Made by a program: the position numbers and the translations under genes
In this document: one piece after another, positions 4,170 through 13,160 of the stretch
How the letters are laid out: the number at the start of each line of letters is the position of its first letter
Numbering within the stretch: position 1 is the stretch's first letter
Virus record (IMG/VR): IMGVR_UViG_3300037193_001621
Location: 1 to 36,297 of that record
Strand: one strand, 5' to 3'
DNA from: a virus
Length of the DNA stretch: 36,297 bases
Notes under the pieces: model-generated
What the model was told of the DNA's origin: nothing
Databases searched by the model: none
What the model saw: the letters and a program-made list of their open reading frames with translations, nothing else

Positions 4170-4342
4170 TGAACTGGATCGGCTTCAGCATCGCGTTGGG
4201 CGTGACGGGGGTCTACAGCGTGGCCATCTACTCGATCGGCCATGCGGTGGGCTACCGGAAAGGTGAGCACGAGGTCCTCCACCGCGTCCGCACTCGCAAG
4301 TTGCACGATTCGGCAACACCCCCCGGAAAGGGCGGCTACTGA
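4169..4342 (+). CDS. Small single-pass membrane protein
   Basis: A 57-residue protein whose ATG shares a base with the previous stop (TGATG) and whose own stop shares a base with the next start. Residues 3-26 are hydrophobic (WIGFSIALGVTGVYSVAIYS) and form one membrane segment. A basic cytoplasmic tail follows (HEVLHRVRTRKL). No function can be assigned. Its position in an early operon would suit host-takeover or exclusion proteins, but nothing in the sequence shows this. Confidence 0.5.
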   Translation: MNWIGFSIALGVTGVYSVAIYSIGHAVGYRKGEHEVLHRVRTRKLHDSATPPGKGGY

Positions 4343-4956
4343 TGGACCCGATCAAGAGAGTGGCCGACGCGATTGGGGGAGGCTCGTCTGAGCCTGTGCG
4401 CCTTGGCGTTCCCGCCTCCCCGAACCCCGGCGACATCCGGCACCGAATGATCCCAGGAGATGCCGAGGCGGAGGCACGGAGCCGCGCGCCTCTTCCCCCG
4501 CCCCCGGATATCGCGGACCTCCGTGTGACGCTCCCTGGGCCCCACTCGGAGGACAGCATGGAGGGGGAGGTCGGGCCTGGACGGCATCCCCTCCCCACGG
4601 ACCGCCCCGGACGTGTCGTGAAGATGAAGTTCGGGGGCATCAAGATGTACATGTACACGGGGGAGTACGACGACGGCAGGCTAGGTGAGATCTTCATCAA
4701 AGACGCCGGCAAGCAGGGCTCGACGTTGCAGGGCCTTCTGGAGAGCTTCGCCATCATGTTCAGTATCGCTCTTCAGTACGGAGCCGAGTTCGACATGATC
4801 GCAAGGAAGTTCCACCAGATGAACTTCGAGCCCAACGGGTTGTACTACGAGTCGACGCAGATCCGCTTGGTCCGCAGCCCGATCGACGCCATCATCAAGG
4901 AGCTGACCATCATCTACGGCAGCGACGAGCTGAAGAGGGAGATACTCAATGCGTAG
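4342..4956 (+). CDS. Stand-alone C-terminal (TSCPD) domain of B12-dependent ribonucleotide reductase
   Basis: A 204-residue protein. Residues 1-90 are proline- and glycine-rich and probably disordered. Residues about 92-190 match the TSCPD domain at the C terminus of adenosylcobalamin-dependent ribonucleotide reductase (NrdJ): GGIKMYMYTGEYDDGRLGEI, then GSTLQGLLESFAIMFSIALQ, then FEPNG and RLVRSPIDAII. In NrdJ this domain follows the catalytic barrel. Here neither the barrel nor the terminal redox cysteines are present, and no other reductase gene lies in the window. It may modulate a host or phage reductase, or have been recruited to a new role; both are inference. It overlaps the next gene by eight bases. 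Confidence 0.75.
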   Translation: MDPIKRVADAIGGGSSEPVRLGVPASPNPGDIRHRMIPGDAEAEARSRAPLPPPPDIADLRVTLPGPHSEDSMEGEVGPGRHPLPTDRPGRVVKMKFGGIKMYMYTGEYDDGRLGEIFIKDAGKQGSTLQGLLESFAIMFSIALQYGAEFDMIARKFHQMNFEPNGLYYESTQIRLVRSPIDAIIKELTIIYGSDELKREILNA

Positions 4957-5209
4957 ACCGATGCCGCGCCCGGGGAACCAGCCCCAGATCAACAAGGTTA
5001 CAGACCACCCCTTCAAACCGCAAAAGACCGGCAACAAGGGTAACCTCTCGGACTATGCCGTGTTCGACGGGTGCGCCACTTGTCGGCTCGACGAGCAGTC
5101 CCACACGGAGACGATGGTCTGCCGGGACGAGACCGGCAAAATCACTGGGGTCGGAAACACCGAATCCAACAACCAGATGACCATGTTCCCCGAAAGGCAG
5201 AACCCATGA
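4949..5209 (+). CDS. Small cysteine-containing hypothetical protein
   Basis: An 86-residue protein from ATG 4949 with GGGAGA upstream. The N-terminal 35 residues are proline- and lysine-rich and polar. A CxxC pair (GCATCRLDEQSHTE) and a third cysteine (MVCRDETG) could form part of a metal site or a redox pair. It directly follows the NrdJ-like domain, whose parent enzyme normally needs a C-terminal cysteine pair. It is tempting to link them, but the sequence does not prove it. ATGA overlap with the next gene. Confidence 0.55.
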   Translation: MRRPMPRPGNQPQINKVTDHPFKPQKTGNKGNLSDYAVFDGCATCRLDEQSHTETMVCRDETGKITGVGNTESNNQMTMFPERQNP

Positions 5210-5622
5210 AGATCTACGTCGCCGGCAAGTTCGAGGACTACCGCCGAGTGCGGGAGATCCAAGAGTTGGCCAGGAAGCATGGCCATACGATCACCTTCGA
5301 CTGGACGGTCGTTGCGGCCATGGTCGAGAACACCGGCCAGAGGCCCACAGAAGACCTGGAACGGGAAAACGCCGGCAAGGATCTGTGGGGAGTCAAGACG
5401 GCGCACCTGCTAATCGCTCTGCATCACCCCGAGGCCCTGGGCACCCTGATCGAGGTCGGCATCGCCTTCGGAACCGGCAAGCAGATCTGGCTCGTCGGCC
5501 CGTGGGGGCACTCGGTCTTCTGGGCGGACCCGAACGTGATGAAGGTAGAAGCACAAGCGGACTGGCAAGCACAGCTGTCGGCCCTGAACTTCTTGCTCCG
5601 CGAAAAGAGCCCGACGGCATGA
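5206..5622 (+). CDS. Nucleoside 2-deoxyribosyltransferase-fold protein
   Basis: A 138-residue protein from ATG 5206. It opens with MKIYVAGKFEDYRRV, the strand-loop of the nucleoside 2-deoxyribosyltransferase superfamily. Near residue 85 it has GTLIEVGIAFGTGKQIWLVG, where the Glu corresponds to the catalytic nucleophile of that family. Enzymes of this fold cleave or swap the base of deoxynucleosides or deoxynucleotides; the family includes DNPH1, which hydrolyses 5-hydroxymethyl-dUMP. With a possible hydroxymethylase downstream, nucleotide-pool sanitising is an attractive role but is inference. Phage members annotated DUF4406 share the same look. It is coupled to both neighbours by ATGA. Confidence 0.65.
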   Translation: MKIYVAGKFEDYRRVREIQELARKHGHTITFDWTVVAAMVENTGQRPTEDLERENAGKDLWGVKTAHLLIALHHPEALGTLIEVGIAFGTGKQIWLVGPWGHSVFWADPNVMKVEAQADWQAQLSALNFLLREKSPTA

Positions 5623-5729
5623 CCCCGAAGCAAGAGGAGTGGCGGGGAACCCGCCTGACCCGGGTCTACGGCAGCGTCAGCTGGGCTGGCTTCTGGGTTG
5701 GCCTCGGTATCGCGGTGGCTAACTGGTAA
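5619..5729 (+). CDS. Very small membrane peptide
   Basis: A 36-residue frame with ATGA overlap at its start and TAATG overlap with the helicase gene at its end. The last 20 residues are hydrophobic (VSWAGFWVGLGIAVANW) and could span a membrane; the N terminus is basic. The tight coupling on both sides supports translation, possibly serving mainly to feed ribosomes to the helicase start. No function is recognised. Confidence 0.45.
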   Translation: MTPKQEEWRGTRLTRVYGSVSWAGFWVGLGIAVANW

Positions 5730-7183
5730 TGAGCAAGCTGGTCTTCAAGACCAAGCCTCGGCCACACCAGACCCCTGCCCTCAAGTTCCTCATCAAGAAC
5801 GGGGGTGGGGGTCTGTACGTGCCGATGCGGTACGGCAAGACTTGGATCGCCATCAACGCCGCGGCTGGCCTGCACTTGAAGCACTTCGCTCCACGGATCC
5901 TGATTGTTTGTCCGAACGACGTCAAGGAGGTGTGGGAGAGAGAGATCGAGCTGCACTGCCCGCTTCCGTACGAGATCCTCGAGCAGGTCACCAAGACCAA
6001 GTTCCAGGACTTCTCCCGCGGCAGTCTCCAGTTCCACATCCGTAACTTCGAGGGAGTCTTCGCGCACGAGTGGGATGACCCTGATGCCGTGGACCCGGAG
6101 ACCGGCAAGAGAACCGACCGAGCCTGGTCCGCCGTCTCTGACAAGAACCTGCTGGAGTGGAAGCCTGACATCGTCATCGTGGACGAGGCTCACCACATTG
6201 GCAAGCCAACTACCCTGACGTCAAAGAAGGTCCAGCAGGTAGCGCGCATGAGCCGTTTCCGGATATTCATGACGGGCACTCCCTGGCACCGCAAGCCCTT
6301 CTACGTCTACGGCCAGTTCCAGTTCTACGGACCGCACGTGATCGGCCTGCCCTGGTCCAAATTCAAGCGTCACATCGCCGTCTACGGGGGGTACGGTGGG
6401 TACGAGGTCAAGCGGTACAAGAACTTGAAGTGGGTACGCGACAAGATCAAGCCGCACGTTTTCATCGCCGAGAAGGTGCCTTCGGCGCCACCAACGTACA
6501 AGCACCTCCGCTACTCCCTCACCGGCAAGAACGCGGCCTACTACCGCAAGATGGAGAAGGAGTCCATTATCACCTTGTCGGACGGAGCCACGGTAGACGC
6601 GGACCTGGCGCTCACGCGCTACCTACGCCTAGCCCAGATCGCCGGGGGCTGGGTGAAACTCGAGAACGGGAGATACCGACGTGTCGGAACCGACAAAAAG
6701 AGAGCACTCCAGAAGCGTATCGCTGAGTATCAAGAGAACGAGCTCACGAAGTTGGTGGTCGGGTGTCGATTCATCCCGGAACTCGTCGACGTTCGAGATG
6801 CATTCGTGGCCGCCGGGTACAACACATACATGGTGCATGGTGGTGTGGAGCGTAAGGATCGGGCGGTACGACGTGACGCTTTCAACGAAGACGATCAGCC
6901 CGCCGTATTCATCACCCAGTTCCGCACCAGCCGAGAGGGGATCGACCTAAGCTCGGCCGACGCGATGTTGTACTATTCGATGCCGGAGGACTATCTCACC
7001 TACGACCAGTTCAGTCAACGAATCGCCAAGTACGCCGAGAAGCGGACGCTCCTCTACGAGCACCTGCTAGCTCGCGGCACCGTCGAGATTATGGCCTACG
7101 AGGCTATCTCGCGGCAAGAAGACGTAGCTCGCTACATCATGTCACGACCTCGCCTGGTAGAGCGGCTTACCGCAAGAGTGTGA
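5729..7183 (+). CDS. SNF2-type superfamily 2 DNA helicase/translocase
   Basis: A 484-residue protein. Motifs in order: Q-like RPHQTPALKFL at 11-21, motif I MRYGKT at 33-38, motif II DEAH at 152-155, motif III TGTP at 182-185. The second RecA lobe has MVHGGVERKDR, TQFRTSREGIDLSSADAML (motif V) and a motif VI form, YDQFSQRIAK, lacking the usual HRxGQ. These features fit the compact SNF2-like helicases found in many phage replication modules, which use ATP to move on double-stranded DNA. It should act in replication or recombination. The start ATG overlaps the preceding stop. A gap with a promoter follows, so this gene probably ends the first early transcription unit. Confidence 0.85.
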   Translation: MSKLVFKTKPRPHQTPALKFLIKNGGGGLYVPMRYGKTWIAINAAAGLHLKHFAPRILIVCPNDVKEVWEREIELHCPLPYEILEQVTKTKFQDFSRGSLQFHIRNFEGVFAHEWDDPDAVDPETGKRTDRAWSAVSDKNLLEWKPDIVIVDEAHHIGKPTTLTSKKVQQVARMSRFRIFMTGTPWHRKPFYVYGQFQFYGPHVIGLPWSKFKRHIAVYGGYGGYEVKRYKNLKWVRDKIKPHVFIAEKVPSAPPTYKHLRYSLTGKNAAYYRKMEKESIITLSDGATVDADLALTRYLRLAQIAGGWVKLENGRYRRVGTDKKRALQKRIAEYQENELTKLVVGCRFIPELVDVRDAFVAAGYNTYMVHGGVERKDRAVRRDAFNEDDQPAVFITQFRTSREGIDLSSADAMLYYSMPEDYLTYDQFSQRIAKYAEKRTLLYEHLLARGTVEIMAYEAISRQEDVARYIMSRPRLVERLTARV

Positions 7184-7195
7184 TTCTTTCAGGTG

Positions 7196-7204
7196 TGGTA
7201 TACT
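7196..7204 (+). promoter_or_regulatory. Extended -10 promoter before the nucleotide cassette
   Basis: TGGTATACT (7196-7204) is an extended -10 element (TGn plus TATACT) in the 58-base gap between helicase and kinase genes. The -35 region is not convincing, as is usual for extended -10 promoters. Start of transcription near 7211 would give a leader of about 30 bases carrying AGGAG. Confidence 0.5.
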
Positions 7205-7241: not shown

Positions 7242-7805
7242 TTGATCATTATCGAAGGCCCGGACGGCGCGGGCAAGACGACTCTCGTCCAGAAGCTTCT
7301 CGACGAGTTTCCCACCGGCTTGGTGCTCGGAGAGAGGGGTACCACAGATCGATCCAAACTGTACGAGGTCACGGTTCCCGACACCTTCCGGGCGCTCACC
7401 TACGCAGTGAATGGGGACAAGCCCGCCCGCCTGTGGGACCGGCTGTTCTACTCCGAGTTCGTCTACGCCCCCCTGGGGATGCCCCCGCGGGAGCCAATGT
7501 TCAACGAGAGCCAGCGGGTGCACATCACCAAGATGATCCAGGCGATCGGCGCCCCCTTCGTGCTCTGCATGCCTCCCCTCCAGACTGTGCTCGACAACAT
7601 GGCCGAGGAGCGGGAGCAGATGGCCGGCGTCCGAGAGCACATCGAGTCGATCTACTCGTCGTACAGCACTCTCTACGACGACCGCTGGTTCCCCGACCGC
7701 ACCTACGTCTTCGACTACACCGCGCCAGATGCGGAGGACACGGTCGAAGAACTCATGGCCGACATCCAGGACTACATCGACGAGTACGAGGAGCTGCAGG
7801 CATGA
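7242..7805 (+). CDS. Thymidylate kinase-like deoxynucleoside monophosphate kinase
   Basis: A 187-residue protein from TTG 7242, with AGGAG five bases upstream. The Walker A loop, GPDGAGKT, spans residues 6-13 (Lys12). WDRLFYSEFVY near residue 65 matches the DRxxxSExVY signature of thymidylate kinases and related dNMP kinases. A lid region with acidic/Arg residues follows (AEEREQMAGVREH). It should phosphorylate a deoxynucleoside monophosphate to the diphosphate. The substrate cannot be read from sequence; the neighbouring hydroxymethylase-like gene makes hydroxymethyl-dCMP a candidate besides dTMP. It is the first gene behind the extended -10 promoter and couples to the MazG gene by ATGA. Confidence 0.75.
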   Translation: MIIIEGPDGAGKTTLVQKLLDEFPTGLVLGERGTTDRSKLYEVTVPDTFRALTYAVNGDKPARLWDRLFYSEFVYAPLGMPPREPMFNESQRVHITKMIQAIGAPFVLCMPPLQTVLDNMAEEREQMAGVREHIESIYSSYSTLYDDRWFPDRTYVFDYTAPDAEDTVEELMADIQDYIDEYEELQA

Positions 7806-8449
7806 CCGACCTCCTGACGATCCAGCAGGAACGCAACGAGTGGGTCGCCCACAACTTCCCGGACCTGCCCAACCGCAGGGAGAACATGACGCGCTCGCTC
7901 CTCGGGTGCATCGAAGAACTCGGCGAGCTGGCCCACGCAGACCTCAAGCAGAAACAGGGGATCCGGGGTACGGCTGAGGAGCACGAGGCCAACGCCAAGG
8001 ATGCCGTTGGGGATGCGCTCGTGTACCTCCTGGGGGTCTGTGAGTACGCCGGCTTTACCCTGCAGGCCGCGGTGAACATGGTCGGCCATCCCCACCCCTT
8101 GGAGTCCGACGGCTCCCTGTTCTGGGCCTGCAATCGCCTCGGCAAGATGTGTAACCTGGACTGGATCCAGTGGAACGCCGTCATGCAGCGTTTGGTCGGG
8201 GAGTTCTACTGGGCACTCCACCAGTACGCCTACAAGAGGTGGGACATGGACGCCTACGACCTGCTCTACATCACCTGGTCCGAGGTCAAGAAGCGGGACT
8301 GGCAGAAGAACCGCCAGGACGGGGGAGAAGAGGCAACCGGAGCCGTCACCATCGTGATCCCCATCCACCCCGACTTCCCGATCAACAAGAAGCACCTTGA
8401 GGAAGCGGCCAAGCAGGCTATCGCTGATCTCGGAGTCCCGGTAGACTAG
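7802..8449 (+). CDS. MazG-like nucleotide pyrophosphohydrolase
   Basis: A 215-residue protein. Residues 35-80 hold the MazG metal-binding pattern: EELGE at 38-42, then KDAVGDALVYLLG with Asp67 and Asp71. The second half (residues 110-170) contains QRLVGEFYWALHQYAYKRW and LLYITWSEVKKRDW, a helical segment and TW.EV.KRDW ending often seen in phage MazG proteins. Such enzymes hydrolyse (d)NTPs to monophosphates and pyrophosphate. Between a dNMP kinase and a hydroxymethylase-like protein it could act as the dCTPase that keeps normal dCTP out of phage DNA, as T4 gp56 does in its system. Substrate is inferred. Confidence 0.75.
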   Translation: MTDLLTIQQERNEWVAHNFPDLPNRRENMTRSLLGCIEELGELAHADLKQKQGIRGTAEEHEANAKDAVGDALVYLLGVCEYAGFTLQAAVNMVGHPHPLESDGSLFWACNRLGKMCNLDWIQWNAVMQRLVGEFYWALHQYAYKRWDMDAYDLLYITWSEVKKRDWQKNRQDGGEEATGAVTIVIPIHPDFPINKKHLEEAAKQAIADLGVPVD

Positions 8450-9318
8450 TGGCACCGATCCTCTTCAGAACCGACACCCTCTCCAACCTGTGGCACAAGG
8501 GCTGTGACGCCCTGCTCTACGCCACCGCAGACCAACTGGACTGGGCGGCGGGAGCTACCACAGGTAGGAACGACAACCTGCTCATGTGCGAGTCGATGGA
8601 GTTCGACTTCGACTGCGCCGACATCTGGCTCACAGCCGGCCGCTTCAAGAAGCTCCAACGCGACTACCTCGACTACGAGATCCTTCCCCAGTTCGTCGAG
8701 CGGGCGGCGAGCATGAAGCCTCTCCTGGCTCGGAGGGGAACCGTCACCCAGATGTCCTGTCGAGTCCACGGAAAGGTGGAACGCACGGACGGTCGGAAGG
8801 AGAACTACAAGTGGGGCAACTGCATCTTCGGTTTCAGCTTTCGCCCAGTCGACAACCGCGGGAAACGGGGCCAACCCCCACAGACCAACCAGGCTGGCAT
8901 CTTTTCGATGCACAGCCGAACGAGCTACGTCTCGTACATGGGTGGCATGGATCTGGCCCTCTCCTACGTCTTGGCGAAAGCGATAGCCGAACAGCGCGGG
9001 GACTCCGTCGAGGACTATGGCTTCCGGTGGATGGTGGACTCACTTCAGTGGTACTCCATCAAGTCCCTGGCATACATGTCGACCTTCGGCGAGCTGGACG
9101 CTTTGACCACCGAAGCTTCCCGCGCTGAGTACCCCGACAAGAAGTACCCGTCGATCAAGATCACCCGCAACTCGTTCGACTTCATGAAGCGCCGGCTCGA
9201 CGCCAACAACCCACCGAAGTACGGTCCCACACTGCGTATGTGGGAGATGCTCTACGACAAGTCCAAGCGACCGAAGTCCACTCCGGTCGACAACCTAACC
9301 CTGGAGGCACTAGCGTGA
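8449..9318 (+). CDS. Divergent thymidylate-synthase-fold paralogue
   Basis: A 289-residue protein from GTG 8449. Several stretches align by eye with the thymidylate synthase fold and with the next gene: GRNDNLL and ESMEFDFDCADIWL at 39-61, KWGNCIFGFSFRP at 121-133 (Cys125 in the catalytic-Cys region), and HSRTSYVSYMGGMDLALSYVLAK at 155-177. In the last, Arg157 and Asp168 hold the 11-residue spacing of the phosphate-binding Arg and Asn/Asp. The Asp after RSx is Tyr160 and the usual His is Gln200, so the site is degenerate. It may be a partner subunit or modify a different base. An unrelated protein is possible. Confidence 0.4.
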   Translation: MAPILFRTDTLSNLWHKGCDALLYATADQLDWAAGATTGRNDNLLMCESMEFDFDCADIWLTAGRFKKLQRDYLDYEILPQFVERAASMKPLLARRGTVTQMSCRVHGKVERTDGRKENYKWGNCIFGFSFRPVDNRGKRGQPPQTNQAGIFSMHSRTSYVSYMGGMDLALSYVLAKAIAEQRGDSVEDYGFRWMVDSLQWYSIKSLAYMSTFGELDALTTEASRAEYPDKKYPSIKITRNSFDFMKRRLDANNPPKYGPTLRMWEMLYDKSKRPKSTPVDNLTLEALA

Positions 9319-10169
9319 CCGCCATCTTCAGCGCCATGAGAAGCGCAACCTTCGGACCAACTTGGTTCGACATCGAAAAGCAGTTCCTCCTGGAGGGGGA
9401 CCACCAGAAGGTTGACACCGGCCACTGGCAAGGAGTGAAGGGGACGCCCCACAGCCAGACCCGCGAGATCCAGAACGCCCTCATCGAGGTGCCGATCGAG
9501 AAGTCCATCGAGGACTGGCAGTCCTTCATGCACCCGAACCTTCCGTGGGCCGAGGACCACTTCCTGGAGCGCGTCTCCGGGGAGCCGCTCAACCCCGGCG
9601 TCGAGTACCAGAACTGGCCCTGGTACAAGGGTGGCGTCGAGGACCACAAGGAGACCGGCCAGTTCAGCCACACGTACATGGAGCGGTTTTGGCCTCGGTT
9701 CGCCGGGGACGGGAGTCCCGATGCTGAGCGCTTCGCGGGAGAGAACTTCGGCATCCGCTTCCGTTATGCGGACCTCAACGACCTGGTGCAGCTTCTGGCG
9801 GAGCACCCCTACACCCGTCAGGCGTACCTACCGATCTGGTTCCCGGAGGACGGCGCCGCCAGTCTCCAAGGAGAGCGAGTCCCTTGCACGCTCGGATACC
9901 ACTTCATGCTCCGCAACGGACAGCTGCACTGCTTCTACCCGATGCGCTCGGTGGATTTCGTCCGCTATCTCCGGGACGACATCTACATGGCCGGCCGTCT
10001 GGCCCTGTGGCTCTGTGAGAAGGTGCCGGGGTTCTTCCAGAGGGGTATCACTCCCGGCAAGCTCACCTTCTTCGCGAGCAGCCTACACATCTTTGAGGGA
10101 GACGTGCCCAAGCTCCAGAGGGAGTACGACGAGCACCAGGCCGAGAAGCTGCGGAGGGCATTCGGATGA
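9315..10169 (+). CDS. dCMP hydroxymethylase-like protein of the thymidylate synthase family
   Basis: A 284-residue protein from GTG 9315 (GGAGG eight bases upstream). The family core is clear: TRQAYLPIWFPEDG at 167-180, VPCTLGYHF with catalytic Cys191, MRSVDF with Arg211-Ser212-Asp214, Asp222, and SLHIF with His258. Cys to Arg is 20 residues, exactly as in E. coli ThyA (146 to 166). Arg to the base-selecting residue is 11, also as in ThyA, but that residue is Asp rather than Asn177. Asp here is typical of dCMP hydroxymethylases (T4 gp42) and dCMP-using relatives. It probably transfers a one-carbon unit from a folate to C5 of dCMP. A thymidylate synthase with changed specificity cannot be excluded. 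Confidence 0.7.
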   Translation: MTAIFSAMRSATFGPTWFDIEKQFLLEGDHQKVDTGHWQGVKGTPHSQTREIQNALIEVPIEKSIEDWQSFMHPNLPWAEDHFLERVSGEPLNPGVEYQNWPWYKGGVEDHKETGQFSHTYMERFWPRFAGDGSPDAERFAGENFGIRFRYADLNDLVQLLAEHPYTRQAYLPIWFPEDGAASLQGERVPCTLGYHFMLRNGQLHCFYPMRSVDFVRYLRDDIYMAGRLALWLCEKVPGFFQRGITPGKLTFFASSLHIFEGDVPKLQREYDEHQAEKLRRAFG

Positions 10170-10255
10170 ACGAGATGCTCAAGGAACTCACCGGACTTCT
10201 CCGGGACCTGCGGGTGTTGATCCGGATCGTCATCGAGCAGGAGAGGGATGAATGA
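10166..10255 (+). CDS. 29-residue peptide between hydroxymethylase and deaminase genes
   Basis: A short frame with ATGA overlap at both ends and GGAGG eight bases before its ATG. The peptide is one amphipathic helix (LKELTGLLRDLRVLIRIVIE). It fills exactly the gap between two enzymes in an otherwise gapless operon, supporting translation. It may only couple ribosomes to the next start; no function is recognised. Confidence 0.4.
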   Translation: MNEMLKELTGLLRDLRVLIRIVIEQERDE

Positions 10256-10722
10256 CCCGCCTCACCCGCGAGGACTTTTTCATGGAGGCCGCCCGCCTCT
10301 GTGCCAAGCGGAGCACTTGCCTCCGGGGACAGGTCGGAGCCGTACTCGTCGACGGTAAGCACATCGTTGCTCACGGCTACAACGGAGCGCCGGCTGGTAT
10401 GAACCACTGCCTGGACGTGGGGTGCGACGAGGAGACCGTCTACGTGAAGGGGGAGCGCGCCTTCGAACCACAAACCACGGGGTGCAGAAGGGCCATCCAC
10501 GCCGAGGCCAACCTCATCGCCTACGCGGCCCGGCATGGAGTCTGTACCCTCGGGTGCGTTCTGTACTCCACAGCCGAGCCCTGCAGAAAGTGCGCTGAGC
10601 TCATCGTGCAGGCGGGCATCACTCACGTCTACTTCGAGAACCCGTACCGCCTCGGTGCCTCTCAGTTCCTGACCGAAGCCGGCATCCACATCTACCAGCA
10701 CGTCTGGACGCCTGTGGGATGA
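10252..10722 (+). CDS. dCMP deaminase
   Basis: A 156-residue zinc-dependent cytidine/deoxycytidylate deaminase. It has HAEAN near residues 83-87 (zinc His and catalytic Glu) and EPCRKC near 107-112 (the two zinc cysteines). The N-terminal region (ARLCAKRSTCLRGQVGAVLV, then GYNGAPAG) is typical of dCMP deaminases, including the extra Cys/His residues that bind a second zinc. The enzyme turns dCMP into dUMP for thymidylate synthesis. In this cassette it would compete with the hydroxymethylase for dCMP and set the balance between T and (modified) C. It overlaps the following polymerase gene by four bases. Confidence 0.9.
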   Translation: MTRLTREDFFMEAARLCAKRSTCLRGQVGAVLVDGKHIVAHGYNGAPAGMNHCLDVGCDEETVYVKGERAFEPQTTGCRRAIHAEANLIAYAARHGVCTLGCVLYSTAEPCRKCAELIVQAGITHVYFENPYRLGASQFLTEAGIHIYQHVWTPVG

Positions 10723-13160
10723 CTTGGAAAGATGACATCCGCAACCCCGACTGCACTCTGTGCTCTCTGCACCAGGAGGCGGAGCACGTCTGCTTGATGG
10801 GGTCGGGGAAGCGGAAGTCTCGGGTCATGGTGATCGGGGAGGCACCTGGCCAGCGGGAGGACGAGGAGCACCGGGCCTTCGTGGGCAGCGCGGGCCAGGT
10901 ACTCCGCTCGGTCCTGAACCAGGTGGGGATCGACCCCGACGACTGCTACATCACCAACGTAGCCAAGTGCCGGCCCCCCAACAACCGCACACCCGAGAAC
11001 AAGGAGATCAAGGTCTGTGTCGAGAACTATCTCGTCAAAGAGTTCGATAGAGTCCGACCGGACTTTGTACTTCTCCTCGGTAACTCAGCGCTCCGTGGAG
11101 TCATTGGAAAGTCAGGAATCACCAAGTACAACGGAGTGGTCTGGGAAGTCGAGGTTGCGGCTGGCCATAAGGCTAGCATCATGGGCACTGTTCACCCGGC
11201 AGCCGTACTCCGAAATCCACGCTATAAGGATGTGTTCGCGGCCGACATCGTCCGCTTCGCGAACCTAACCCGCGGCGTCTCCACCGAGCCTGAGACCAAG
11301 ATCAAACTTGTCTCGAAGAAGGGACACCTCAAGTATCTGCTCGAGGTGCTTATGGAAGCCGACGAGATCAGTTGGGACGTAGAGACCGCCACAGAGCCGG
11401 TGGAGAAGCCGTACGTCCGAACACCAGGGCAGGACTGGCTCGGAGACGAGAGCTACATCACGAGTATCGCGTTCTCTGTAGAGGAGGGAGAGTCCTACGC
11501 CTTCTTGCTTGACCACCCTGACACTCCCTGGGCCTCCCCGGAGGACGTGCTAGAGGCTGTCCGGCCTGCCATGCTCAGGAAGGACTGCAAGTACGTCGCG
11601 CACAACGGCAAGTTCGATGCTCGGTGGCTCCACAGCAAGGGGATCCCGGTCCGCCAGGACTTCGACACTATGCTCGCGGCTCACATGCTTGACGAGAACC
11701 GGCTGAAGGGTCTCAAGCCGCTGAGCAAGATCCTGCTCGGAGCAGCTCCGTACAATGAGGAAGTAGACACCAAGCAGACTCGAAGTATCCCGGGCAGGCA
11801 GCTTCTCCGGTACAACGCCAAGGATACCGACTACACGCTGCGCCTCTACCACATTTTCCGTGACCAGCTGAAGGAGGAACCGCGGATTGCTCGCGTCTTC
11901 CAGAAGCTCATGATGCCTGCATCCAACGTCCTGGTAGACGTGGAACGGTACGGGGTGTGGGTGGACCCGGAGCGCTGGGAAGAGCGGTATCTCCAGGCCT
12001 GCGAGAACCGCGACAAGATCGATCGGTACATCCAGCAGTGGTGGCCGGAAGACAACTCGATGAACATCAACTCTCACCCACAGGTGGCGAGGCTGTTGTT
12101 CGAACACTTGGGTCTTCCCATCATCGAGAAGACCAACAAAGGTAAGCCCTCCAGTCGAGAGGGCGTACTACTGCAACTGGAGAAACAGCATGTCGTCTGC
12201 AAGGCGCTCATCAAGTGGAGAAAGTGGGCGAAGTACGTCAACACGTACCTCGGCCCGTGGAAGTACGAGTGGATGGACGACAACGGTCGTATCCACAGCA
12301 CCTACAAGCTCTTCGGCACGGTCACAGGCCGAATATCGGGTGAGGGAGGCATTCAGCAAGTTCCGCGGGACCCGTTCATCCGGTCGGTAATTGGCGCCCC
12401 TCCGGGGTGGAAGTTCCTGCAAGCCGACTACAGCCAGGTCGAGCTGAGGGTAGCGGCGATGCTGGCTAACGAGAGGCGCATGATTCGACAGTTCCTCCAG
12501 GGAGAGGACATCCACATGATCCGCGCCATGAGGATGACCGGCAAGACCAACCCACAGGACGTGGCGAAGGAGGAACGCAAGAAGGCCAAGCCGGTGTCCT
12601 TCGGCTACCTCTACGGGATGGGCGCCAAGAAGTTCGTCACGTACGCATTCGAGAACTACGGCGTCGACTACACGCTAGAGGAGGCACAGGAAAACCGTGA
12701 GCAATTCTTCTCGGACTACCCCGCCCTTCGACCTTGGCACGATCGTCAACGGAGACTGGCACGTAAGTACGGACGTGTCAACTCGCCGATCGGGAGGGTT
12801 CGACATCTACCTGACATTGAGTCCGCGGAAGAGAGTGTTCGGCAGGAAGCAGAACGTCAAGCTATCAATAGCCCTGTACAGTCCTTCGCTTCCGACCTCA
12901 TGCTTCTCTCCCTCATCACCCTACACCGGGAAGTTCTGGACCCTCGAGAGTGTCGAATTGTCGGAACCGTCCACGACTCCATCCTTTTCGAGGTTCGAGA
13001 AGATGTCGCGGAGGATTACGCGGGTGTCATCAAAGAGACGATGGAGGACATGAGCCTCGTCCGTCGCAAGTTCGGTACGGAGGTCACAGTACCCATCGTA
13101 GCCGACATCGAAATTGGTCAGCACTGGGGTGAGGGCACTCCGTGGGAGCCTACCCAGTAG
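10719..13160 (+). CDS. Family 4 uracil-DNA glycosylase fused to DNA polymerase I
   Basis: An 813-residue protein with three parts. Residues 1-185 are a family 4 uracil-DNA glycosylase: cysteines 12, 15, 84 and 100 have the 4Fe-4S spacing, GEAPGQRED lies at 40-48 and VHPAAVLRNP at 158-167. Residues 215-400 are a DEDDy 3'-5' exonuclease: Asp220-x-Glu222, Asn296...Asp300, Tyr365...Asp369. Residues 400-813 are a family A polymerase: motif A DYSQVELR at 570-577, motif B KPVSFGYLYG at 624-633 (Phe628 at the 762 position), motif C VHDS at 751-754. It should replicate the phage genome and remove uracil at the fork. A UDG-like domain on the SPO1 polymerase is a precedent. The catalytic residues look intact throughout. 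Confidence 0.9.
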   Translation: MTWKDDIRNPDCTLCSLHQEAEHVCLMGSGKRKSRVMVIGEAPGQREDEEHRAFVGSAGQVLRSVLNQVGIDPDDCYITNVAKCRPPNNRTPENKEIKVCVENYLVKEFDRVRPDFVLLLGNSALRGVIGKSGITKYNGVVWEVEVAAGHKASIMGTVHPAAVLRNPRYKDVFAADIVRFANLTRGVSTEPETKIKLVSKKGHLKYLLEVLMEADEISWDVETATEPVEKPYVRTPGQDWLGDESYITSIAFSVEEGESYAFLLDHPDTPWASPEDVLEAVRPAMLRKDCKYVAHNGKFDARWLHSKGIPVRQDFDTMLAAHMLDENRLKGLKPLSKILLGAAPYNEEVDTKQTRSIPGRQLLRYNAKDTDYTLRLYHIFRDQLKEEPRIARVFQKLMMPASNVLVDVERYGVWVDPERWEERYLQACENRDKIDRYIQQWWPEDNSMNINSHPQVARLLFEHLGLPIIEKTNKGKPSSREGVLLQLEKQHVVCKALIKWRKWAKYVNTYLGPWKYEWMDDNGRIHSTYKLFGTVTGRISGEGGIQQVPRDPFIRSVIGAPPGWKFLQADYSQVELRVAAMLANERRMIRQFLQGEDIHMIRAMRMTGKTNPQDVAKEERKKAKPVSFGYLYGMGAKKFVTYAFENYGVDYTLEEAQENREQFFSDYPALRPWHDRQRRLARKYGRVNSPIGRVRHLPDIESAEESVRQEAERQAINSPVQSFASDLMLLSLITLHREVLDPRECRIVGTVHDSILFEVREDVAEDYAGVIKETMEDMSLVRRKFGTEVTVPIVADIEIGQHWGEGTPWEPTQ

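Follow-up and report, generated by a model that had tools for sequence, protein, structure and literature searches.

A phage gene cassette with two thymidylate-synthase-fold proteins is predicted to make a C5-substituted deoxycytidine nucleotide

Thymidylate synthase (TS) can be switched to deoxycytidine monophosphate (dCMP) by the published replacement N177D, and 5-hydroxy-dCMP synthases are an established variant of the TS family. In the MetaGPA study (eLife 2021, PMC8670742), the TS homologs of cytosine-modified and unmodified phage contigs differ chiefly at positions 177 and 147. In the T4 dCMP hydroxymethylase gp42, Asp145 activates water, D145N abolishes product formation, and Ser94/Tyr96 and Glu60 take part in the reaction (PMC6400193); according to the same study, hydroxymethylases have an acidic residue, Asp or Glu, at the position three residues ahead of the catalytic Cys (Cys-3), where TS has Leu. 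The DNA of Stenotrophomonas phage AXL3, which also encodes a TS homolog, is cut by only 2 of 37 restriction enzymes, both with A/T-only sites, and resists enzymes with G or C in their sites. Here we analyze a gene cassette in a 36,297-base IMG/VR virus record (IMGVR_UViG_3300037193_001621, possibly incomplete; the whole stretch is hereafter the window), in which a TS-like protein, TS*, is encoded directly after a second, cryptic TS-fold protein, P3 (Table 1). We consider it likely that the product of the cassette is a C5-substituted deoxycytidine nucleotide made ahead of replication, and the novelty of the cassette lies chiefly in the hidden second TS-fold protein and in the Arg/His active site of TS*.

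An initial annotation of this DNA had read the fourth product, TS*, as a dCMP-hydroxymethylase-like protein. The score of TS* against PF00303 (Thymidylat_synt) is just above cut-off, and an AlphaFold2 (AF2) model searched with Foldseek places it in the TS superfamily, with MilA and T4-type enzymes also matched. Cys191 and Asp222, 31 residues apart, had been correctly picked out, and their spacing is that of C146 and N177 in E. coli and of C148 and D179 in T4. In an alignment of 47 relatives drawn from IMG/VR and phage records, the equivalents of Arg166, Asp169 and His207 are invariant, and the Asn177 of canonical, dTMP-forming ThyA is Asp in every case (47/47). The position of His147 is also changed throughout, to Thr192 here and to Thr or Ser among the relatives, which fits the 147/177 pattern of MetaGPA. 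These residues support the predicted switch to dCMP, with cytosine as the target. The published reading of the homologous operon in Gordonia phage Azira is instead "thymine synthesis", i.e., dCMP deaminase, dUTPase, TS and thymidylate kinase would turn cytosine nucleotides into dTTP; gene names in Muddy, Zuko and Serbin agree with it, and the deaminase and kinase would fit. However, besides the changes at 177 and 147, Leu143 has become Arg, and several relatives encode ThyA or ThyX as well. In Microbacterium phage Triscuit, a canonical ThyA (gp67, PCH...N) adjoins TS*; in ctfzr933, a ThyX gene lies inside the cassette between the pyrophosphatase and P3 genes; and ThyX-motif proteins occur near three marine TS* genes. 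Because Asp is invariant at the Asn177 position and a separate ThyA or ThyX is present in some relatives, ordinary dTMP synthesis by TS* is unlikely, and the two arguments together therefore give good support to a modified deoxycytidine. An Agathobaculum phage protein annotated as deoxyuridylate hydroxymethyltransferase (L045:3782-4444) also has Asp at position 177, and dCMP is therefore its likelier substrate.

The reaction itself is harder to assign. The initial annotation proposed a T4-type dCMP hydroxymethylase giving 5-hydroxymethylcytosine, and in addition to the Foldseek matches and a similar gene set, TS* and T4 gp42 have in common Asp222, Cys191, Thr192 and the pterin-binding Asp169 equivalent, Asp214. 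At Cys-3, however, TS* has Arg188 (47/47). In the comparison enzymes this residue is as expected: Asp in T4 gp42 and in AXL3 gp28, Glu in AmPh_EK29, an AfhB-like protein, and Leu in ThyA and in Triscuit gp67. The position of T4 Ser94 is His119 in 43 of the 47 relatives and Tyr in the others, and the Glu58/Glu60 position aligns with His82 in the main branch and is Glu in L076 and L084, the alignment of this helix being uncertain. With Arg188 in place of Asp/Glu, TS* departs from the residue pattern of T4-type hydroxymethylases, though it may still act on dCMP. A hydroxymethyl-dCMP product formed by the T4 mechanism is thus unsupported, and we regard T4-type hydroxymethylation as conceivable but doubtful. 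The divergent branch of L076, L079, L080 and L084 offers a natural intermediate for probing the active site: the two members examined, L076 and L084, have Glu at E58 and Tyr at Tyr209, yet bear Arg at Cys-3 and encode P3.

By sequence, the closest solved structures to TS* belong to flavin-dependent dCMP hydroxylases (9iqu, AfhB; 9iqc, with dCMP and FAD), which would lead to 5-hydroxycytosine, possibly glycosylated afterwards. An apparent loss of E58 and a Phe at the Tyr209 position are common to TS* and AmPh_EK29. However, AmPh_EK29 has Asn at the Asp169 position and Glu at Cys-3, against Asp214 and Arg188 in TS*, and no glycosyltransferase was found by scans of most open reading frames of the window; an AfhB-type enzyme seems unlikely. 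A dCMP methylase giving 5-methylcytosine, as in XP12, is also conceivable in that one Asn-to-Asp change turns TS into such an enzyme. Against it, TS* lacks the C-terminal tail with which TS closes, Leu143 is again replaced by Arg, and dihydrofolate is regenerated by methylation, yet no dihydrofolate reductase (DHFR) was recognized in this record; we give methylation little chance. In Xanthomonas phage Elanor (L043:6806-8591) and Stenotrophomonas phage QDWS359 (L044:4641-6507), an Asp177/Asn143-type TS homolog does lie near a predicted DHFR, an arrangement that would fit a dCMP methylase. The likelihoods given here to hydroxymethylation, hydroxylation and methylation overlap with that of the favored model. 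Judged from its residues, the active site of TS* fits neither known prototype, T4-type or AfhB-type.

The third product, P3, had been described as a divergent TS-fold protein, and this was borne out by its predicted structure and not by sequence searches. Searches of Pfam, NCBIfam and PDB sequences, including one with the P3 profile against PDB, gave no TS match and nothing meaningful, and profile-profile comparison of P3 with TS* gave a probability of only 0.2%, though Cys, Arg and Asp were aligned in the expected register. An AF2 model built from 38 sequences (pLDDT 85.5, pTM 0.87) has top Foldseek matches in PDB that all belong to the TS superfamily, namely the dCMP hydroxylase AfhB (9iqu, best E 4.5e-6, highest TMt 0.57), 9iqc, MilA and thymidylate synthases. 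Its matches in viral models include gp42 of Acj9 and an uncharacterized protein of PMBT14, whose genome itself carries a P3-type gene. By this model, P3 has the TS fold. Moreover, Cys125, Arg157 and Asp168 are invariant in the 38 P3 relatives; Cys and Arg are 19-20 residues apart in 36 of them, and Arg and Asp 11 in all 38, compared with 20 and 11 in E. coli ThyA. From the spacing and the invariant residues, P3 appears to keep the TS-type Cys and Arg and to have Asp where ThyA has Asn177. Its role as a conserved partner of the TS-like gene had been overlooked, and in two records P3 is already named 'pyrimidine hmase synthase'. At locus L048:9785-11883, two tandem P3 copies precede TS*, making three consecutive TS-fold genes.

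The synteny of the two genes suggests that P3 and TS* probably act as partners. The order helicase-kinase-pyrophosphatase-P3-TS*-dCMP deaminase-PolA recurs in Mycobacterium, Streptomyces, Gordonia and Microbacterium phages, and the cassette order is also found in Serratia, Brevundimonas and Yersinia phages, where P3 is more divergent and another helicase/recombinase gene lies upstream. The proteobacterial P3, present in 18 phage records, is related to the actinophage P3 (profile comparison 94.5%, E 8e-8). Phages of Actinobacteria, Gammaproteobacteria and Alphaproteobacteria all show this gene order, so the cassette is not a chance assembly. TS* lies downstream of P3 in 37 of 38 loci, and the remaining locus ends with its contig; these loci come from a P3-based search and are biased to P3 by construction, and a few are one contig fetched twice. 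In a tree of 62 proteins, all Arg188-type proteins fall on one side of a branch with 100/98 support. A marine branch is nested among the P3 holders beside the TS* of the window, with modest support (82/86) and subject to long outgroup branches. P3 was not found in the 29 loci of this branch, where TS* is followed by an asparagine-synthetase-like protein that matches Asn_synthase (1.6e-32), has a glutamine amidotransferase domain and contains the motifs MCGF and SGGLDS, and no locus has both P3 and this gene. This suggests that the partner of TS* is exchangeable and that the base may be further decorated in the marine branch. In the marine loci L005-L034 (e.g., L016:10663-11979), the amidotransferase is intact and has glutaminase and ATP-pyrophosphatase motifs, and it is possibly a new base-hypermodification gene.

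The pathway that we favor would run as follows. The MazG-type enzyme may first turn dCTP into dCMP. TS* would then modify dCMP at C5, Cys191 serving as the nucleophile and Asp222 recognizing cytosine, a substrate class supported by the residues above, and P3, to judge from synteny, probably joins it. The substituent may be a one-carbon unit donated by methylene-tetrahydrofolate, giving hydroxymethyl or a group derived from it; alternatively, it may be a hydroxyl of the kind added by flavin-dependent 5-hydroxy-dCMP synthases. Candidate products thus include hydroxymethylcytosine, hydroxycytosine and cytosine with some other substituent. The kinase would send the modified monophosphate back towards the triphosphate. 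Leftover dCMP would be converted to dUMP by the dCMP deaminase, and a polymerase-fused uracil-DNA glycosylase (UDG) would purge uracil; the domains of both are present, namely a Zn deaminase domain with HAE and PCxxC motifs in the translation, and a UDG domain scoring above the model cut-off of TIGR00758 (UDG_fam4). The genes present are consistent with this presumed logic of dCTPase and kinase. A kinase ortholog occurs in almost all P3-bearing relatives, and its Pfam match covers the P-loop only, with all Pfam and NCBIfam scores below cut-off. The slot of the MazG-like gene is filled in relatives by dUTPase_2, PRA-PH or MazG-type proteins.

Several points weigh against this model. The MazG family match is weak (phrog_715, 2.7e-5; Pfam gives no MazG match), and the candidate dCTPase takes its substrate from analogy. 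The mapping of E58 to His82 comes from sequence alignment and not from superposed coordinates. No glycosyltransferase or other tailoring enzyme was recognized in this possibly incomplete 36 kb record: Pfam and PHROG scans of most open reading frames (ORFs), together with searches for SGGxDS and MCG motifs, gave no glycosyltransferase, carbamoyltransferase, asparagine synthetase or QueC-like gene. A virion nucleoside analysis was not found for any member of the TS*/P3 clade. AXL3 gp28 falls in another TS clade, so the restriction resistance of AXL3 is an analogy that backs the logic of the cassette and not the chemistry of the Arg188 clade. We also put forward, as a rather improbable version, that TS* and P3 form a two-paralog hetero-oligomeric enzyme in which neither water nor hydride but some other nucleophile enters the Arg188/His119 pocket, and that dCMP thereby receives a substituted methyl group, e.g., an amino-acid adduct, in a single step; the marine asparagine-synthetase-like neighbor would then amidate a carboxylate, and the result would be a cytosine hypermodification so far undescribed.

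In the window, the minus strand carries tail, head and terminase genes and the plus strand replication genes; phage records gave no near-identical match. The initial annotation had the five ORFs of the gapless run at 7242-10722 on the plus strand, and all were recovered there with 1-4 base overlaps at every junction. It had missed a 29-aa ORF between the fourth and fifth genes, and small ORFs stand at this position in some relatives, e.g., CherryonLim 49 and Triscuit 68. The next gene, encoding the polymerase, likewise overlaps the end of the cassette. The extended -10 string TGGTATACT, proposed as the promoter, is present and is the sole TGnTATAMT match in the window; as promoter evidence it is weak, as at least one match occurs in 17% of shuffles and no -35 element or sigma-70 promoter pair was found near it. 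Further upstream, just before the helicase gene, the product of 5206-5622 resembles nucleoside 2-deoxyribosyltransferases (PF05014, 3.6e-7). We take it to share its superfamily with MilB, the mildiomycin enzyme that acts as a hydroxymethyl-CMP N-glycosidase. A stand-alone TSCPD domain encoded at 4342-4956 resembles the C-terminus of B12-dependent ribonucleotide reductase.

Table 1. Features of the predicted cytosine-modification cassette and its surroundings, with positions in the window
Feature	Position	Strand	Support or remark
SNF2/ResIII-type helicase	5729..7183	+	Upstream neighbor conserved among relatives that carry P3
Extended -10 element TGGTATACT, candidate cassette promoter	7196..7204	+	Sole TGnTATAMT match of the window
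P-loop (deoxy)nucleoside monophosphate kinase, with GGAG ahead of a TTG start	7242..7805	+	phrog_761 thymidylate kinase 1e-18
MazG-like all-alpha NTP pyrophosphohydrolase, candidate dCTPase	7802..8449	+	phrog_715 2.7e-5
P3, cryptic TS-fold protein, presumed partner of TS*	8449..9318	+	phrog_13667 (function unknown) 4e-34
P3 Cys125 codon, candidate catalytic Cys	8821..8823	+	Invariant 38/38
P3 Arg157 codon, EcThyA R166 equivalent	8917..8919	+	38/38
P3 Asp168 codon, EcThyA N177 equivalent, Arg+11	8950..8952	+	38/38
TS*, predicted TS-like dCMP-modifying enzyme	9315..10169	+	PF00303 7.5e-6; phrog_160 5e-29; AF2 pLDDT 86.2; Foldseek 3e-13
TS* Arg188 codon, at Cys-3 (TS has Leu here, T4 gp42 has Asp)	9876..9878	+	Arg 47/47
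TS* catalytic Cys191 codon	9885..9887	+	47/47
TS* Asp222 codon, dCMP-specifying, EcThyA N177 position	9978..9980	+	Asp 47/47
29-aa ORF, coupled by ATGA overlaps, no assigned function	10166..10255	+	
dCMP deaminase	10252..10722	+	PF00383 1.4e-22; phrog_174 9e-46
Family-4 UDG fused to 3'-5' exonuclease and DNA polymerase A	10719..13160	+	PF03167, PF01612, PF00476

Roughly 100 phage records, that of the therapeutic mycobacteriophage Muddy among them, contain the TS homolog, which is annotated as thymidylate synthase where it is named. If the model is true, the DNA of these phages is altered in a way that bears on restriction, CRISPR, type IV defenses and sequencing; P3 would be a defined partner for the TS homolog, and the Arg/His active site predicts a chemistry unlike that of both known dCMP-modifying TS homologs. 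Muddy is reported to infect efficiently a strain whose hsdSMR restricts phage BPs; this was dropped as evidence for modified DNA, because an absence of sites is equally possible.

Among the described systems, the T4 pathway (gp56 dCTPase, gp42 dCMP hydroxymethylase, gp1 kinase and Cd deaminase) resembles the cassette in its order of logic, in the Asp at the specificity position and in what would be modification before replication. The cassette differs in that TS* is without the water-activating Asp145/Ser94 pair of gp42, in the extra TS-fold partner P3, in having no glucosyltransferase, and in its genes being packed in one operon. The class of the flavin-dependent dCMP 5-hydroxylase AfhB and of the 5-hydroxy-dCMP synthase of phages with glycosylated 5-hydroxycytosine is like TS* in TS fold and predicted dCMP substrate; of the solved structures it is nearest to TS* in sequence and ranks with the best matches in fold. 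TS* differs from it at the Cys-3 and Asp169 positions, similarity is what hints at flavin use by TS*, and no arabinosyl or other transferase is seen. The TS homologs of the MetaGPA modified contigs (PMC8670742) share with TS* the Asp177, an altered residue 147, and a PRA-PH-type pyrophosphohydrolase and dCMP deaminase as neighbors; those homologs come with a carbamoyltransferase, whereas here P3 is found instead, or the asparagine-synthetase-like protein in the marine relatives. AXL3 likewise has a kinase, an NTP pyrophosphohydrolase, a D177 TS homolog and a dCMP deaminase, and also ThyX, but in its gp28 the Cys-3 residue is the hydroxymethylase Asp and Glu58 is present, and no P3 was identified in AXL3. 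The "thymine synthesis" operons of the actinophages Azira, Muddy and Zuko consist of homologous genes, arranged alike in those members that were examined, and their TS homologs, where examined, also have Asp177 and Arg at Cys-3; only the interpretation differs.

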